Below the pieces are notes generated by a model, which searched no databases, was not told where the DNA came from, and worked only from the letters and a program-made list of their open reading frames with translations. The position numbers and the translations under genes are program-made. Shown here in pieces: positions 1 through 7,093 of a DNA stretch of 22,721 bases; position 1 is the stretch's first letter; the number at the start of each line of letters is the position of its first letter. The stretch comes from a virus. Where the stretch lies: the IMG/VR virus record IMGVR_UViG_3300023178_000280, positions 1-22,721 of that record; one strand, written 5' to 3'.

Positions 1-3000
1 ATAGAGGCAAATGCACAAGTCAACGTTGCCACCAACCTCTCAGTAACAGCAGACACTAACCAATTGCAAGTTAACTCATCTACTGGTACTAATGTAGACT
101 TGCCTGCCGCGACATCAAGTGCTTGGGGTGTTGTATCGGATGATGCTCAAACATTCGGTGGTGAGAAAGCGTTCGCTAATGGAATACTTCTTACTTCTAC
201 TGCTGCAACAACGCCTGCCATTCAATTTAATAACAATTCTGGGACCGATGCCGCTGTCGATATGGCTATTCGTGGAAATGCTGAAGCATTGGACTTTTAT
301 GAACCAGAACAGGCTGATAAAGTTCATATGCGAATTATTGATGACGGAGGTGTCTGGGCGCATTATGGTTTTAAGACGGGTAGTACAAACAACGGTATTC
401 TAAGACTCGATTCTGTCGGTAATTTATTAAACATTAGTAATATCACACTTTCTGGTACAGTGGATGGTCGAGATGTTGCGAACGATGGTGCAAGGGTTGA
501 CGAACTTCCTGAAAGTATCGCACGTGCTCAGGGATGGGTTCCCGCTTATAGTAATAACGACGAAACGACTGTTTATTGGAACCCGACTGAAGAAGCTGTT
601 GCTCTCGAAAATGGTACTAGTGATAATACAGTTGGAATGGCATACCCAGCATTTAGAGTTAATTCTGGTGAAGTAGTAAAATTTTCACTAAGTTATAAAG
701 GATCATCTGCGGATACGGATGGGTTTTATGCTAGAATTTATTGGTACTATGGTGATTTACCAGACGGCATAACTCACGTATCAAGCTCATCAAACGGTAC
801 AACAACTTCCTCACCGTTTGTAATAGAAGATAATGACGGTGATGGCGGCGCCGCCCAGATCACCGATTGGGAAGATAATTCTGCTGTACCATCTACTTGG
901 ACAAATACTGAATATTCTTGGACAGTTCCAGATCTAGATGCTGCTTCAGGTGGTCAAACTCTTGGATATGCCTATGCATCTATAGTAATTCTAAACTGGA
1001 GTGGTTTTGAAGCTACAGGGGATACAATATACGTAAAACAACCCAAAATTTCTGTACAAGAGACTTTATCAAGTCTGGGATATACGGGTGATACAAACGC
1101 TCAAGCAAACGTAGCCACTAATCTGGGGACCGACGCGACTGCCAGTAGTCTGACCATCACGTCTTCAACTGGTAATAATGCAAGCGTACCTGCGGCTACT
1201 ACTTCCGCCTGGGGCGCAATGACAGATGAAGATAAATCTAAACTCGACAGTGTTCAGATTGCCGCAACGGTACCACCATCCTTCGGTTCCTTCGGAGGTG
1301 CTGGTACATATGGTTCTACTTCTAACAGTACCAAGATTGATAATATCACAATTGATGCGTATGGTCGAATCACAAACATTACAACTGGTGGAACAGGTGA
1401 CATCACAGGTGTTACTGCTGGTACTGGTTTAAGTGGCGGTGGAACGTCTGGTACAGTTACACTTAACGTAAGTGGTTTAACAACATCAGAAATAGCGGCC
1501 GCTACATTAATAACGTCATCTGAAACTTTTACTGATAATGATACAACACTGGCGACCACTGCTGCAATTACTGACCAAATTGAAAGTTTTAATTATATCA
1601 CTAACAGTATTAGTACTGGTTTTACAGCGACTGGTTCATTAACGGGTTCATCTTTGGAAACCACTTCTGGTGGTTTGAATCTTACAGGCGAATTTGCTGG
1701 TGGAAATGATATAACCATTTTTGATAGTGCAGGATTAACGGCAACCACCCATCTTATTACACCAAGTAAGTCAGGTTTGGCGATCAGTGTTGATGCCCTC
1801 AGTAAGCACATCAACACCGCTTTTGAGGTTTCATTAGATGGTGATCGTGCATTTATGAGCACAGCTGGCGGCGCCGCACAACATAAATTTTCTATAAACC
1901 CACAGGCTGGGAATGTAGTTACTGCATTTGAAGTTAAAAACGACGAACCTGAAATAAGGATTGCACATAACCAAGCAATCCCAACCAGTGGTACAGTTCT
2001 CGCAACGATTACTGCTTATGGTGCTACTGCGGGTTCAAACGCAACAAACTGGACTTACGAAAAAGGCGGAGAATTAACGTTTACCGCAGGTGGTACTTGG
2101 AGTGGATCTAGCCAACTCACCAATGTGACACTGGATGCAACTGGAGACATTACTCTTGACGCAGACGGTAACCAAATCAGATTTAAGAACGGTGCGGGTG
2201 GAGACGAAGTAACTCACACTCTTAACGACAATGCAACCTACGAAATCGACGCACCTTCTACGTACACCGTGGACGCAGGCGGGGATATTGTTCTTGACGC
2301 AGACGGTGGTGATGTTATCATTCGGGACGGTGGTGTAGTAGATTATGTATTCAGCACCAACGGTACAATCTCCAGAACCGGAGACTTTATTGTTGACGTA
2401 ACTGGAGACATCACATTAGACGCAGACGGTAACCAAATCAGATTTAAGAATGGTGCTGGTGGAGACGAGGTAACTCACACGCTTAACGACAATGGCACAT
2501 ATGAAATCGACGCACCTTCTACTTATACAATAGATGCAGTTGGGGATATTGTTCTTGACGCAGATGGCAACGACATTATCTTTAAGAATGGAGGCGGCGC
2601 TGATACGGTAACTCACACATTAGCAAATGATGCGAACTTTACTATTACTGCTCCTGCTAACTATACAGTCGACGCTAGTGGTGATTATACACTCAATACA
2701 AATGGGGGTAGTGGTACTACTGCGGTACGAATGAGTGTTACGGGAACTGATGGACAAATCGGTTTCAACACAAGTTCCCCCGCAGCGGGCACTACTATTG
2801 ATATTCACGACGGCCGAGAAACAATTGACGATCCGACGAACCATTTTCCACATCTTCGTTTGACTAACAGTTTCCCCGATACCACCACCTATACTGTCGA
2901 TGATACTATGCATAAAATTAGTTTTTATGAAACGGATGGTAGTAAAGAAGGGTGGGCTATCACTACTCGAAACATGTCTACGTCATCAGCGTTTACTGAT

Positions 3001-5049
3001 ATGAAGATCGAGTATGGCGGTGGAAACACATCTGCTCGATTTAGTTATGACGGAAAATTTGGTGTTGGTAACGGCATATCCTCCTCCTTAAGCGATCCTT
3101 GGAGAGACTGTACGATCACTGCAGCAGGACCAGGCAATTCTGAAATTAGATCGGTTGCTGATGTTGGTGGAAGACTTGGTGTATGTAGAGACGATACTAC
3201 AATCACCACTGGTGAGTTAATCGGTGAAGTTGTTTTCTGGAGTCAGGAGGGGAATGATCCAGATGAAGCAGCAAAAATTGAAGCGGTTGCAGCTGCCAAT
3301 CACGTTGGTGGCTCCAGTTATGCAACTGAATTAAACTTCTATACCACTGAGGCTGCCAGTACCCCAGTACAAAGAATGACAATAACCGCAGACGGTAACG
3401 TCGACATCGGCAGCCTTTTTGAACTAAGCACTGTCGGAAAAAATTTGCTATTGGGTCCTGATAAAACTCAATTATCGGGTACTGATACCTTCTCTATTAG
3501 GTTCGGTAACTCAGAACACAGCGCTAGTGAGTCCAGTGTAGCCGGAATTGCCAGCAGTCTCTTCGGTAGTATAGGAGGTCCTGTTGGTGTTATAGACGAT
3601 CTTCAATTTAAACCCGGCACTCACGGTATTATTAGATTCGGAAGAGGCACCGCTACGGGCGAAAATCCGATTATTTTCGATTCGAATAATGGTATCGGAA
3701 TAGGTCCAACCGTGGCCCGTTCAACCGGCGTTTCAGATATGGACGGATACTTCCATATAAAAAGATCTGACGCTACGGTTTGGGCAGAAAATTCATCATC
3801 TGGATATGATGGTATAAACGCAGTTATTGAAAATACGAGTACTACTAATACTACATCAGCAGGTATTCTTTTTAGAACTAATGGTAATAGTACTGAAAAT
3901 ATTGCTAAGATTAGTAGTGTCTGTTCCGGTGGGGCCGGTTTTGGTACTGCTGACTTCAGATTTACACTGGAAAATAGTGGTACTATTAGTGAAAAAATGC
4001 GACTGACTGGCGACGGCAATTTGCTGGTTGGTCTCAGTTCTGGCGAAGACGCAGTAGTTCACATTGAAGCAACTCAACCTACCTATACCAACTACTCAAC
4101 TATTTTTGCTGGTGGGACTAGCAGCAATACTGGTGTACATGGTATTTCATTAATTTCTTCTGGTGATGCTTTAGGTGGCCTCGTAGGTTCAAACTTGGCT
4201 TTGGAGGGGTCGACTTACAGTCAACCCAACACATCAAGAGCTAGCTCATTTATAGGATTTAGCAACACTACCGTAGCAGGGAAAACTGGCAGTATTTCAT
4301 TCGGAGGTTTAGTAAAGGGAACTACCACTGCGGTGACTCATATGACCCTTGATGAGGACGGCGACTTGCGTGTAATTGATGGATTGGTCACTGCGGGAAC
4401 ATCAACCAGTGGAACCGATGGTGGTGTTATTGTTCAGGGTTATTACAGTAGTGGTAACCTCGCGGTCGTTGGTCAGCAAGCTTCTACTGGTAGTTTAGCT
4501 CTTGGATATGGTGTCAAACCAAAATCGTCAGGCGGCGTCGGAAGTTTTGTAAGTTCAACGGGTATCACTATACCGAAGGGTGCTTACGAGGTTACTGATG
4601 ATCACAGGTGGTATGCAGCAGCCTCGAGCAGCGTGGCAATAGGTAATGATGTCACTATGACAGAAACTATGAGGCTGGAAGAAGACGGTGATCTTCACGT
4701 AGAAAATGATGTTATTGCCTTCTCTACCACAGTATCAGATCAACGCCTCAAAGATGATGTAGAAACACTTGACAAATCACTAGATAAGATTCTACAATTA
4801 AGAGGTGTATCGTTCACTTGGAACTCAGGGTCTCGTGAAGGAACTCGTGACATTGGTGTTATCGCACAAGAAGTGGAAACGGTTATACCAGAAATTGTTC
4901 GTGAGAAACAGGCAGTCCTAATTGATGATCAACCCACAAAGACGGTTGACTACGAAAAACTTGTTGCTGTTCTTATCGAAGGTATGAAAGAACAACAAGC
5001 CCAGATTGATGAACTTCGTGAAGAAATTCAAGCACTCAAGGGAGAATAA
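1..5049 (+). CDS. Large tail-fibre/adhesin protein with C-terminal S74 chaperone domain (5' end outside window)
   Basis: The reading frame is open from base 1 to the TAA at 5047-5049 (1,682 codons seen), so the true start lies upstream; the TTG at 64 is internal. The product is Thr/Ser/Gly/Asp-rich and beta-strand-like, as in long trimeric phage fibres. From about 480 to 1060 a stretch rich in Tyr and Trp looks like a jelly-roll carbohydrate-binding module (inference). Around 1400-1470 there is a GVTAGTGLSGGGTSG motif common in phage fibres. Four tandem repeat units lie at 2143-2679. The C-terminus (about 4735-4950) carries SDQRLKDDV, the hallmark of the peptidase S74 intramolecular chaperone. 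That domain trimerises the fibre and then cuts itself off in front of the Ser (codon 4735-4737), with Ser and Lys as the catalytic pair in known members. A coiled coil (EQQAQIDELREEIQALKG) ends the protein. Role in host binding is inferred; the S74 domain is secure. Confidence 0.88.
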   Translation: MEANAQVNVATNLSVTADTNQLQVNSSTGTNVDLPAATSSAWGVVSDDAQTFGGEKAFANGILLTSTAATTPAIQFNNNSGTDAAVDMAIRGNAEALDFYEPEQADKVHMRIIDDGGVWAHYGFKTGSTNNGILRLDSVGNLLNISNITLSGTVDGRDVANDGARVDELPESIARAQGWVPAYSNNDETTVYWNPTEEAVALENGTSDNTVGMAYPAFRVNSGEVVKFSLSYKGSSADTDGFYARIYWYYGDLPDGITHVSSSSNGTTTSSPFVIEDNDGDGGAAQITDWEDNSAVPSTWTNTEYSWTVPDLDAASGGQTLGYAYASIVILNWSGFEATGDTIYVKQPKISVQETLSSLGYTGDTNAQANVATNLGTDATASSLTITSSTGNNASVPAATTSAWGAMTDEDKSKLDSVQIAATVPPSFGSFGGAGTYGSTSNSTKIDNITIDAYGRITNITTGGTGDITGVTAGTGLSGGGTSGTVTLNVSGLTTSEIAAATLITSSETFTDNDTTLATTAAITDQIESFNYITNSISTGFTATGSLTGSSLETTSGGLNLTGEFAGGNDITIFDSAGLTATTHLITPSKSGLAISVDALSKHINTAFEVSLDGDRAFMSTAGGAAQHKFSINPQAGNVVTAFEVKNDEPEIRIAHNQAIPTSGTVLATITAYGATAGSNATNWTYEKGGELTFTAGGTWSGSSQLTNVTLDATGDITLDADGNQIRFKNGAGGDEVTHTLNDNATYEIDAPSTYTVDAGGDIVLDADGGDVIIRDGGVVDYVFSTNGTISRTGDFIVDVTGDITLDADGNQIRFKNGAGGDEVTHTLNDNGTYEIDAPSTYTIDAVGDIVLDADGNDIIFKNGGGADTVTHTLANDANFTITAPANYTVDASGDYTLNTNGGSGTTAVRMSVTGTDGQIGFNTSSPAAGTTIDIHDGRETIDDPTNHFPHLRLTNSFPDTTTYTVDDTMHKISFYETDGSKEGWAITTRNMSTSSAFTDMKIEYGGGNTSARFSYDGKFGVGNGISSSLSDPWRDCTITAAGPGNSEIRSVADVGGRLGVCRDDTTITTGELIGEVVFWSQEGNDPDEAAKIEAVAAANHVGGSSYATELNFYTTEAASTPVQRMTITADGNVDIGSLFELSTVGKNLLLGPDKTQLSGTDTFSIRFGNSEHSASESSVAGIASSLFGSIGGPVGVIDDLQFKPGTHGIIRFGRGTATGENPIIFDSNNGIGIGPTVARSTGVSDMDGYFHIKRSDATVWAENSSSGYDGINAVIENTSTTNTTSAGILFRTNGNSTENIAKISSVCSGGAGFGTADFRFTLENSGTISEKMRLTGDGNLLVGLSSGEDAVVHIEATQPTYTNYSTIFAGGTSSNTGVHGISLISSGDALGGLVGSNLALEGSTYSQPNTSRASSFIGFSNTTVAGKTGSISFGGLVKGTTTAVTHMTLDEDGDLRVIDGLVTAGTSTSGTDGGVIVQGYYSSGNLAVVGQQASTGSLALGYGVKPKSSGGVGSFVSSTGITIPKGAYEVTDDHRWYAAASSSVAIGNDVTMTETMRLEEDGDLHVENDVIAFSTTVSDQRLKDDVETLDKSLDKILQLRGVSFTWNSGSREGTRDIGVIAQEVETVIPEIVREKQAVLIDDQPTKTVDYEKLVAVLIEGMKEQQAQIDELREEIQALKGE
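10..1233 (+). repeat. Dispersed 45-residue repeat in the fibre gene (copies at 10-144 and 1096-1233)
   Basis: Two segments about 1.09 kb apart encode the same pattern: NAQ-x-NVATNL, then SSTG-x-N, then PAAT-x-SAWG, then an acidic stretch. They diverge at the DNA level but are clearly alike in protein. Together they suggest that the fibre shaft is built from long modules that each begin with this segment. Further copies may lie upstream of the window. Confidence 0.7.
2143..2679 (+). repeat. Four tandem beta-repeat units in the fibre shaft
   Basis: Units begin at 2143, 2281, 2404 and 2542 and encode 46, 41, 46 and 46 residues, each starting GDI(T/V)LDADG. Units 1 and 3 are nearly identical in protein (DGNQIRFKNGAGGDEVTHTL, then EIDAPSTYT), giving an 87-residue super-repeat, while units 2 and 4 are more divergent. 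The DNA of units 1 and 3 is also very similar, which points to recent duplication or gene conversion. The alternating polar/hydrophobic pattern fits a stacked beta-prism or beta-helix shaft; this is inference. Confidence 0.85.
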
Positions 5050-5053
5050 GTAG

Positions 5054-5773
5054 ATGGGCATAGTTGCCAGCACAAATGTTTCTTTTAAAAACCTTTACCG
5101 AGGCACTTCTTGGGGCCAAAGCAATTCAACAATCGCGGATGTAAGTACAAATAAACAATTTTCGATTTCCGCTATAACACACCTAAGAAACCAATTCGGA
5201 ATAGAATATGACGCTAGTAATCCGATTAACGGAACTCAGGGAACTGAATGGAAAGCGTCTCAAACCGTTGGATTATATCTAGCTGATGCTATTCTCACCC
5301 AACAAATTACTTTCGGCACCGACTTGAAGGGTTCTTTAACTAGTGGTTGCGGTTATGGCAATCGATATAATCCAAATAATTTTACCGGCAGACAGTTAAG
5401 TATAGATGGTGTGTTAATAACTCATAATGGACAAGTCGTGACATTCGATGACGGCTTCGCCGGAACTGGGTACTACAATGATGGTACCACTGAGCGGTTT
5501 CAGCTTTCGGTAGAAACTGCTAGTGCCGGGCCCCCTGCTGCCGATTTTGTAAGTTCCATAATTATTCAAATTTCTGGTAACGCGGCAGTCACTCAAAACG
5601 GTCAGCAAGATAGTTTTACACTTGATTTGGCCAACGCCAGCTCCACCGGAACTTTGGGTAATATCCGCTTTATATTCTGGAATCAGACCGATTTTGGAGA
5701 TAATACCGCTTGGACTAATATGACTAATGCTTGGGATGGTTCTGGGGATATGTTTATCGCTTTTGTCGCATAA
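5054..5773 (+). CDS. Unrecognised virion-type protein downstream of the fibre gene (239 aa)
   Basis: ATG at 5054 lies 4 bases after the fibre stop, with a purine-rich GGGAGA (5040-5045) 8 bases upstream, so it is probably co-translated with the fibre. No family is recognised. The protein is rich in Gly, Thr, Asn and Ser, has aromatic residues spread through it (LYRGTSWGQ near the N-terminus, NIRFIFWNQTDFG near residue 205) and has no signal peptide or membrane segment. Composition and position suggest a small beta-sandwich virion protein, such as a fibre partner, tip or decoration. No terminator follows; the next late promoter starts 24 bases after its stop. Confidence 0.7.
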   Translation: MGIVASTNVSFKNLYRGTSWGQSNSTIADVSTNKQFSISAITHLRNQFGIEYDASNPINGTQGTEWKASQTVGLYLADAILTQQITFGTDLKGSLTSGCGYGNRYNPNNFTGRQLSIDGVLITHNGQVVTFDDGFAGTGYYNDGTTERFQLSVETASAGPPAADFVSSIIIQISGNAAVTQNGQQDSFTLDLANASSTGTLGNIRFIFWNQTDFGDNTAWTNMTNAWDGSGDMFIAFVA

Positions 5774-5796
5774 TTTAACAGGAAAATCCTTAAACA

Positions 5797-5804
5797 TATA
5801 AATA
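5797..5804 (+). promoter_or_regulatory. T4-type late promoter box TATAAATA
   Basis: Exact match to the T4 late promoter -10 element, which in T4 is read by RNA polymerase with the gp55 sigma factor and the sliding clamp. With T4 spacing (box from -13 to -6) transcription would start near 5810. It lies in the 68-base gap before the gene at 5842, and its 3' half overlaps the 5' arm of the inverted repeat described next. Confidence 0.8.
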
Positions 5805-5851
5805 GGACATATACACACACCACTAATGATGGGTTGGGGATATGTCCTATT
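5801..5851 (+). promoter_or_regulatory. 12-bp inverted repeat sequestering the start codon of the 5842 gene
   Basis: AATAGGACATAT (5801-5812) is the exact reverse complement of ATATGTCCTATT (5840-5851), separated by 27 bases. The 3' arm holds the ATG at 5842-5844, and the G-rich candidate ribosome site (5831-5839) lies in the loop. RNA read through from upstream could fold and hide the start codon. RNA begun at the late promoter (about 5810) would lack nearly all of the 5' arm. T4 genes such as e and the I-TevI gene are known to use this read-through-off, late-on arrangement. The repeat is seen; the function is inferred. Confidence 0.6.
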
Positions 5852-6207
5852 ATAAAGACCTAACGATAGACCAAGGTTCTTCAGTTTCAATTGATGTCTA
5901 TCTTACAAACAAAGACGGCACGGCTAAGAATTTAACCAATTACACGCCGACTGCTCACATCAGTCCAAACTATAATCTTGATAGTGATAATATTACTGTG
6001 TTCACTTGCACAGTAGATTCTGCTGCGTCTGGAATTATTAATCTTGCGTTATCCTACACTCAAACGGACAATCTGAAAGCGAACAAGAGGTATGTCTATG
6101 ACCTTGAGATTGCTAGAGATAGTTCTGGTTCAATTGCAGAAATTGAACGTGTTATGGAAGGTCAGATTTTCATAACCCCATCAGTAACTAAACTTCCGGG
6201 CTTATAA
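5842..6207 (+). CDS. Small BppU-N-like virion protein (121 aa)
   Basis: The protein opens with MSYYKDLTIDQGSSVSIDVY, continues with DGTAKNLTNYTPTAHIS and ends with the pattern Y-V-Y-D-L-E-I then MEGQIFITPSVT. This matches the layout of the BppU N-terminal-like Ig/beta-sandwich domain found in baseplate and fibre-attachment proteins of many tailed phages (a short 'IDQG...D-G-x-x-x-x-LTxYT...' sandwich of about 110 residues). No enzyme motifs, signal peptide or membrane segment are seen. The ATG is chosen because the domain starts at once after it. The ribosome site is poor: GGGG at 5836-5839 is only two bases away, and the alternative GGG at 5831-5833 is 8 bases away. Expression is probably from the promoter at 5797 and modulated by the hairpin over the start codon. 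It overlaps the next small ORF as TAATG. Confidence 0.72.
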   Translation: MSYYKDLTIDQGSSVSIDVYLTNKDGTAKNLTNYTPTAHISPNYNLDSDNITVFTCTVDSAASGIINLALSYTQTDNLKANKRYVYDLEIARDSSGSIAEIERVMEGQIFITPSVTKLPGL

Positions 6208-6305
6208 TGACAACCGTTGTTCAGAAAGTAGTTCAGGTTAAAACTAAAGTGAACAAAGTTGTTATCACTAAAAATACTTTGGTTAAAAAAGTCGTTTTAA
6301 ATTAA
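6207..6305 (+). CDS. 32-residue Val/Lys-rich small ORF
   Basis: ATG at 6207 overlaps the upstream stop (TAATG), the same junction used between other genes of this window, and the frame runs to TAA at 6303-6305. The peptide is almost all Val, Lys, Thr, Asn and Gln (for example VVQKVVQVKTKVNKVVITKN), with alternating hydrophobic and charged residues as in a beta strand. No known function. In related phages a BppU-like gene is often followed by a fibre gene whose N-terminus looks similar before a collagen-like stretch, so this may be a minimal or truncated remnant of such a gene (inference from pattern memory). It is too short to be sure that it is translated. Confidence 0.5.
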   Translation: MTTVVQKVVQVKTKVNKVVITKNTLVKKVVLN

Positions 6306-6307
6306 CC

Positions 6308-6315
6308 AATAAATA
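6308..6315 (+). promoter_or_regulatory. Probable late promoter box AATAAATA before gp13
   Basis: One mismatch from TATAAATA and an exact match to the relaxed NATAAATA late motif described for cyanophages. It lies 26 bases before the gp13 start, directly after the stop of the small ORF. A transcript starting near 6321 would carry the AAAGG ribosome site at 6326-6330. Confidence 0.55.
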
Positions 6316-6340
6316 TGATTGAATAAAAGGATTAACAATA

Positions 6341-7093
6341 ATGGCAACACCAAATTCAAGGCAATCACTGATAGACTTCTGTCTTCGCAGATTAGGTGCG
6401 CCTGTAATTGAAATTAATGTTGACGATGATCAGATCGAAGATAAGGTCGATGATGCATTACAAATGTATCAAGAGTTTCATTCTGATGCAACCTATCGAA
6501 CATATTTAAAGCACGTTATCACACAAACCGATAAAGACAATGGATATATTCCAATATCGTCCAATGTAATTTATGTGTCTCAACTGTTTCCTCTAAACCC
6601 GACATTTTCTTCTGTGAATATGTTTGACATTCGATATCAGATGATGTTGAATAGTCTGGGTGATTTTTTGAACTTTGCAGGTGGTATGTCTTACTACTAT
6701 CAAATGCAACAGTACTTAGAATTTCTCGATCAAATATTGTCGGGTTATCCTCAAACCACTTGGTCACGTCATCAAGATAGACTTTACATTTGGGGTGAGT
6801 GGTCTAACGGTGATTTAGACGTTGGAGATTATATTGTTGCCGAGGTTTACACAGCCGTTGACCCAACTACATTCTCAAGTGTTTATAATGATATGTTTGT
6901 AAAAAATTACACCACTGCGTTAATCAAACAACAGTGGGGTATGAATATGTCTAAGTTTGAGGGAATGCAGTTGCCAGGGGGTGTGACAATCAGTGGCAGA
7001 CAAATTCTAGAAGATGCTAGCGCAGAACTGAGAGAACTAGAAGAGAAACTTCGTTTAGAACAAGAATTACCACCCGACTTCTTTATAGGTTAA
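6341..7093 (+). CDS. 13: Neck protein gp13 (head completion)
   Basis: Homologue of T4 gp13, which with gp14 forms the neck that closes the filled head and offers the docking site for the tail. The N-terminus has the typical family start (ATPNSRQSLIDFCLRRLGAP followed by IEINVDDDQIEDKVDDAL), then a Tyr/Phe-rich middle (MSYYYQMQQYLEFLDQIL) and an acidic, helical C-terminal end (ASAELRELEEKLRLEQELPP). At 250 residues it is shorter than T4 gp13 (about 309) and close to the marine T4-like forms. The ribosome site is AAAGG at 6326-6330, and AATAAATA at 6308 is the likely promoter. In T4 gp14 follows directly; here a small membrane-type gene lies in between. The family assignment is firm from sequence pattern and from the following gp14-gp15-gp16-gp17 order. 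Confidence 0.9.
   Translation: MATPNSRQSLIDFCLRRLGAPVIEINVDDDQIEDKVDDALQMYQEFHSDATYRTYLKHVITQTDKDNGYIPISSNVIYVSQLFPLNPTFSSVNMFDIRYQMMLNSLGDFLNFAGGMSYYYQMQQYLEFLDQILSGYPQTTWSRHQDRLYIWGEWSNGDLDVGDYIVAEVYTAVDPTTFSSVYNDMFVKNYTTALIKQQWGMNMSKFEGMQLPGGVTISGRQILEDASAELRELEEKLRLEQELPPDFFIG

Follow-up and report, generated by a model that had tools for sequence, protein, structure and literature searches.

Why should the start codon of a virion gene be embedded in an inverted repeat whose other arm overlaps a late promoter, and would RNA begun at that promoter be translated differently from RNA read through from the genes upstream? The window, i.e., the whole 22,721-nt stretch of viral DNA analyzed here, raises this question at position 5842. 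The earlier note had suggested a time switch, in which read-through RNA folds over the start codon and the late RNA does not. The features concerned, all on the plus strand, are the following.

1–5049, +: large gene with a C-terminal Peptidase_S74 chaperone domain (tail fibre; domain match)
5054–5773, +: gene for a 239-aa protein without family match, candidate source of read-through RNA
5797–5804, +: T4-type late promoter box TATAAATA (exact match)
5801–5812, +: 5′ arm AATAGGACATAT, sharing its first 4 nt with the end of the box; the last 2–4 nt lie in the predicted late RNA
5809–5811, +: putative late transcription start, placed by T4 spacing from the box, with a CA initiator-like step at 5808–5809
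5813–5839, +: loop with the purine-rich GGGTTGGGG at 5831–5839; sequence and length differ among near relatives
5840–5851, +: 3′ arm ATATGTCCTATT, containing the start codon plus codons 2–4
5845–5847, +: rare Ser codon TCC (codon 2), the partner of GGA in the 5′ arm
5842–6207, +: gene for a 121-aa fibre-collar/adaptor protein, T5 p132/LtfC-like, with a BppU-like fold (phrog_1084/3304, profile, Foldseek)

Gene Product and Genomic Neighborhood

The product of the 5842 gene matches phrog_1084 and phrog_3304 (L-shaped tail fibre assembly) and, in a profile comparison, the PDB sequence 7qg9_R (T5 p132; E 1.2e-8). The top Foldseek matches of its AlphaFold model (pLDDT 87.6) are 8hqz and 7qg9, both p132 of T5/DT57C (8hqz_T: E 9e-10, TM 0.81). 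By sequence and fold, the product is thus a fibre-collar protein of the T5 p132/LtfC type. Lower in the Foldseek list stands the injection device 4v96, a lactococcal-phage baseplate containing BppU; "BppU-like virion gene", as the product had been called, is therefore fair, and "fibre-collar adaptor" is more exact, the best match being p132.

The window belongs to a T4-like marine phage, and neck, tail-sheath and terminase genes follow downstream. Genome G001 (locus L416) is the nearest long relative: its six upstream genes are virion/fibre-like or unmatched, and over 12 kb upstream every annotatable gene is a virion or fibre gene; the fibre gene carries its own TATAAATA, 46 nt ahead of its ATG. 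No terminator-like site was found within 4900–6500 of the window.

A Perfect Repeat Overlapping the Late Promoter

The 12-bp inverted repeat is perfect: AATAGGACATAT at 5801–5812 is the exact reverse complement of ATATGTCCTATT at 5840–5851, and the ATG (5842–5844) of the ORF lies inside the 3′ arm, so that the coordinates in the earlier note, including the overlap of the 5′ arm with TATAAATA, are borne out. Exact copies of the box occur four times in the 22.7 kb window, all on the plus strand and all upstream of genes; the same box is in use among T4-like marine phages (PMC2984593). A start near 5810 had been expected to keep about 3 bases of the 5′ arm, and T4 spacing from the box gives 2–4 nt for the predicted start at 5809–5811. 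The late RNA would accordingly lack 8–10 nt of the arm, and the positions of the box (5797–5804) and the arm (5801–5812) place this promoter as in T4-type nested hairpins, in which late RNA does not carry the 5′ arm. The ribosome-binding site of the 5842 gene is weak, which makes the size of any effect of the hairpin uncertain.

An upstream ATGATG opens a frame of 9 codons (5826–5855; MMGWGYVLL*), overlapping the start codon at 5842. Locus L005 has one base fewer, so that this ATGATG is in frame with the gene (MMGWD-MSYYKD); an in-frame TTG in L003 has the same effect.

Could such a repeat arise by chance? It is the single perfect 12-bp inverted repeat with a 3–60-nt loop in the window, and shuffled windows contain 0.09 on average, with at least one in 7% of them. 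However, some of the paired bases are under constraint irrespective of pairing, namely AATA in the box, CAT in the CATATA initiator (against ATG) and the Tyr codons TAT-TAT, so the estimate must be conditioned on these elements. With the box, CATATA and the coding sequence held fixed, a helix as strong is expected with P = 0.003–0.009, and with synonymous codons also freed, P = 0–0.002. TCC accounts for 28 of the 446 Ser codons in the window genes; we count its retention at the very codon where the pairing requires it in favor of a selected hairpin.

Predicted Folds of Read-Through and Late RNA

The earlier note had called for folding the long RNA against one starting at about 5810, and the outcome agrees with its expectation: the hairpin forms in the predicted long RNA and is lost in the late RNA. 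For RNA beginning at 5700, 5760, 5780 or 5795, the probability that the AUG is unpaired is 0.00 in silico, vs. about 0.4–0.5 for RNA beginning at 5808–5811. Opening the region from −12 to +10 costs 18–20 kcal/mol in the long RNA vs. 8.6–8.8 in the late RNA. The predicted long RNA places the AUG within a helix, as expected of a T4-type nested inhibitory hairpin, in which the SD and/or AUG is paired in this way.

The late RNA is itself partly closed, as GGGUUGGGG is mostly paired with downstream sequence. The purine stretch at 5831–5839 is also still mostly bound in it (unpaired probability 0.19–0.25), so that the predicted gain lies at the AUG and the first codons. The z-score of the long RNA over 5780–5900 is just −1.25, which we count against a hairpin gate, and the window hairpin has no match in Rfam.

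Conservation and Covariation among Homologues

Of 142 distinct upstream regions from homologues of the adaptor gene, all but 9 carry a late box no more than 75 nt from the ATG. In 46 of these 133 boxed homologues (35%), DNA ahead of the start pairs with the leader or ATG in a helix at p < 0.01; among 116 control late promoters that serve other genes at the same loci, 5 do so (4%). Controls obtained by box-pattern scan are biased and were excluded from this comparison; they proved to include the homing-endonuclease genes described below. Duplex energy and a helix test cut at box +12 were too crude as measures, and the latter clipped the arm of the window. Scores in the helix test are similar for the window (28, p 0.011), T4 e (27, p 0.006) and T4 49 (26.5, p 0.04); its sensitivity is limited, since it missed T4 soc and I-TevII, both of which have published structures.

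The enrichment rests on few lineages, because the median p falls below 0.05 in only about 4 of the 28 protein clusters (65% identity); many homologues have no hairpin, and one large clade (phage C48C1 and relatives) dominates the count of 46. On the tree, the presence of the hairpin requires seven changes of state.

All 34 rows of the C48C1 clade are positive, and the stem that contains the box reaches up to 25 bp. In this clade, 14 pairs have changed on both sides, e.g., T-A, A-T, G-C and C-G at −7, giving 73 two-sided cells; shuffling gives 22.7 on average and 42 at most. These counts use plus-strand rows only, the covariance-model alignment (A6) having included minus-strand self-matches of the palindrome, and are to be read knowing that this alignment was fitted to the structure and is biased towards it; an additional control on the two-sided changes covered ten rows. 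In a second lineage (L239, L441, L242, L251 and L244), the arms flank the box and are shortened to match each other (CCAGTTTCC/GGAAACTGG and CCAGTTCC/GGAACTGG). G-U pairs are frequent in the covarying C48C1 clade, which favors pairing in RNA over pairing in DNA.

Relatives of the window at 98% protein identity have invariant TATAAATAGGACATATAC and ATATGTCCTATT; the box, arm and leader are alike among them, and the loop and all sequence 5′ of the box vary. At 76–80% identity, the homologous stem still folds, with an A-C mismatch in L017 and an internal loop in L011. With arms either invariant or more weakly paired, covariation in the clade of the window is thin. The earlier note had called for a comparison of arm covariation in related phages; the C48C1 clade and L239 lineage show it, the window's own clade hardly does. 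The arrangement as such, judged by sequence, is kept in related phages. No closer isolate with the window leader emerged when annotated phages were searched by DNA sequence, and a further scan added no new members to the clade.

Proposed Mechanism and Alternative Explanations

Sequence and computation establish the repeat, its overlap with the box and ATG, the difference between predicted folds, the enrichment of pairing across the family and the covariation in two other lineages; where late RNA starts, that read-through occurs, how translation responds and what purpose this serves, we infer. Read-through RNA from the fibre genes, which includes the 5′ arm, would fold into a 12-bp stem over the AUG and codons 2–4, and the adaptor protein would not be translated from it. 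RNA initiated from the adaptor gene's late promoter, near 5809–5811, would form no such stem and could be translated. Synthesis of the adaptor would in this way be tied to its own promoter and insulated from whichever fibre module adjoins upstream. We consider it fairly probable that the late promoter harbors a cis-acting translational gate, with promoter-tying and insulation, rather than delay, as its likeliest role.

The time switch proposed in the earlier note fares less well. As a strict switch of the T4 e kind, early or middle read-through RNA would stay silent until late transcription begins; T4 e and I-TevI are among the genes with an established switch of this kind (PMC3014915, PMC2988022), and the window shares their geometry. 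However, the annotatable upstream genes encode virion and fibre proteins and appear late themselves, which makes insulation likelier than delay, and the late box of the fibre gene in L416 means that read-through RNA is probably also late, pointing to selection by promoter of origin and not by time. No evidence of an early promoter supports the switch either, and we regard it as quite unlikely. Somewhat less doubtful, although still unlikely, is coincidence at the window: the AATA of the box, the CAT of the initiator and the Tyr-Tyr codons would happen to pair, with no RNA function under selection. Most of the 12 pairs do involve bases under independent constraint, the arms of the near group do not covary, and pairing is weaker in L017 and L011. 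Against this stand the low conditional probability of the helix, the rare TCC codon and the covarying hairpins elsewhere in the same gene family.

Two further explanations assign the repeat to termination or to DNA. If the repeat ended the fibre operon as an intrinsic terminator and the next promoter lay within it, this would agree with the 5–7 T that follow the 3′ arm in some members of the C48C1 clade (L348, L357), and such members may possess a terminator. The stem of the window, however, is A+T-rich with a 27-nt loop and no T-run after it, terminator-like sites are absent from 4900–6500, and in L239, L242, L251 and L403 the 3′ arm stops at the ATG without a T-run. Lacking the G+C-rich stem and U-run of a terminator, the window hairpin was rejected as one, and we find this reading very improbable. 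A DNA-level palindrome, serving as an operator or as a recombination site at the point of fibre-module exchange, would account for the sharp divergence of the fibre side at the box, and I-TevI, bound to an operator over its late promoter, offers a precedent (PMC2988022). The many G-U pairs of the covarying clade and the differing distance between arm and box among lineages nevertheless disfavor it for the hairpin; it might apply to single relatives, fits the window poorly, and in our estimate has hardly any chance of being correct.

If the gate does act as an insulator, the dose of adaptor would remain constant while upstream fibre genes are exchanged. Our analysis suggests that the device can insulate a conserved adaptor gene from a fibre cassette that is open to exchange. 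More tentatively, and with the odds somewhat against it, we speculate that hairpins nested in promoters have arisen more than once in marine T4-like phages as translational insulators of fibre adaptors, a late-on-late control by promoter of origin and not by timing. The locus offers a testable pair of RNAs that differ at the 5′ end alone, and the family already contains natural compensatory variants.

Leaders of Other Genes and Other Adaptor Leaders

A scan of marine viral contigs, in which leaders were selected solely by the 5′ half of the motif, returned homing-endonuclease genes: SegE-like GIY-YIG genes in L155 (1777–2217, −), L164 (−), L189 (1142–1555, +) and L171 (+), and HNH-like genes in L146 (5636–6328, −) and L175 (1445–2200, −), the latter two named from an HHI-P-CxGG motif recognized by eye and, in L146, a NUMOD3 match. 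In both groups, the late box lies within a hairpin and the start codon in its 3′ arm, in a geometry near-identical to that of the window, and the arms covary (e.g., GTTCATATA/TATATGAGC and GTCCATATA/TATATGGGC).

Late boxes within hairpins were also observed at a gene beginning METL.AMFGDTLWIY (57+ aa, membrane-like) among the late promoters of G001 and G002 (L300, L323), where the arms differ between the two phages (CTCCTAGA/TCTGGGAG and CTCTTAGA/TCTGGGGG), and just upstream of the ATG of a prohead protease gene (Peptidase_S77; L133, 1472–2110, +). Ahead of neck-protein genes (L029, L041, L087, L095), an AATCCT immediately 5′ of the late box is able to pair with AGGATT in the ribosome-binding site, a short version of the window design.

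A different adaptor leader lies just upstream of the ATG in L230, L252, L253, L256, L276, L281, L444, L456 and L484. It comprises GGCAGG, a small covarying stem (GGGC..GTCC, GGTGG..CCACC) and GACAAAGAA, followed by a second covarying stem (GAAAT..ATTTC, GAACT..AGTTC) that presents GAGG or GGAG in its loop right before the ATG. It has no match in Rfam and is possibly an unrecorded structured RNA.

Comparison with Known Systems

The mechanism itself is already known from T4 (e, soc, 49 and I-TevI); what is new here is the gene, the family-wide covariation and the proposed late-on-late logic. For the fibre-adaptor genes of marine phages, no description of hairpins like these was found in the open-access papers searched, an absence that counts as weak evidence. 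T4 e, soc and 49 have leader hairpins that hide the start and are associated with late promoters (PMC3014915), and in I-TevI, segB and mobE the late promoter is nested in the leader hairpin (PMC2988022). The likeness to T4 e and I-TevI asserted in the earlier note holds up: the geometry is the same, the helix score of e is similar, and homing-endonuclease genes of marine contigs are arranged alike.

In T4 e, as in the window, the 5′ arm overlaps the late box (AATACCT.. vs. ..GGTATT), the 3′ arm covers the start region, and the 5′ arm is absent from the late RNA, which at the window is a prediction. T4 e, however, hides a strong SD and is silenced on early RNA, whereas the window hides mainly the AUG, belongs to a fibre adaptor and has upstream RNA that appears late. 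Leaders of T4 I-TevI, segB, Aeh1 mobE and the SegE/HNH-type genes likewise combine a 5′ arm bearing the late promoter with a 3′ arm bearing the start codon or RBS (PMC2988022), but those of the I-TevI type serve selfish endonuclease genes within early or middle units and not a virion gene. T4 soc, 49, 25 and 26 resemble the window as late genes, some of them virion genes, with a hidden translation start; they differ in that they reportedly lie on long transcripts shared with early and middle genes. Were the proposed gate real, a control device known from lysozyme and homing-endonuclease genes would also operate in the host-recognition module of phages that are abundant in the sea.
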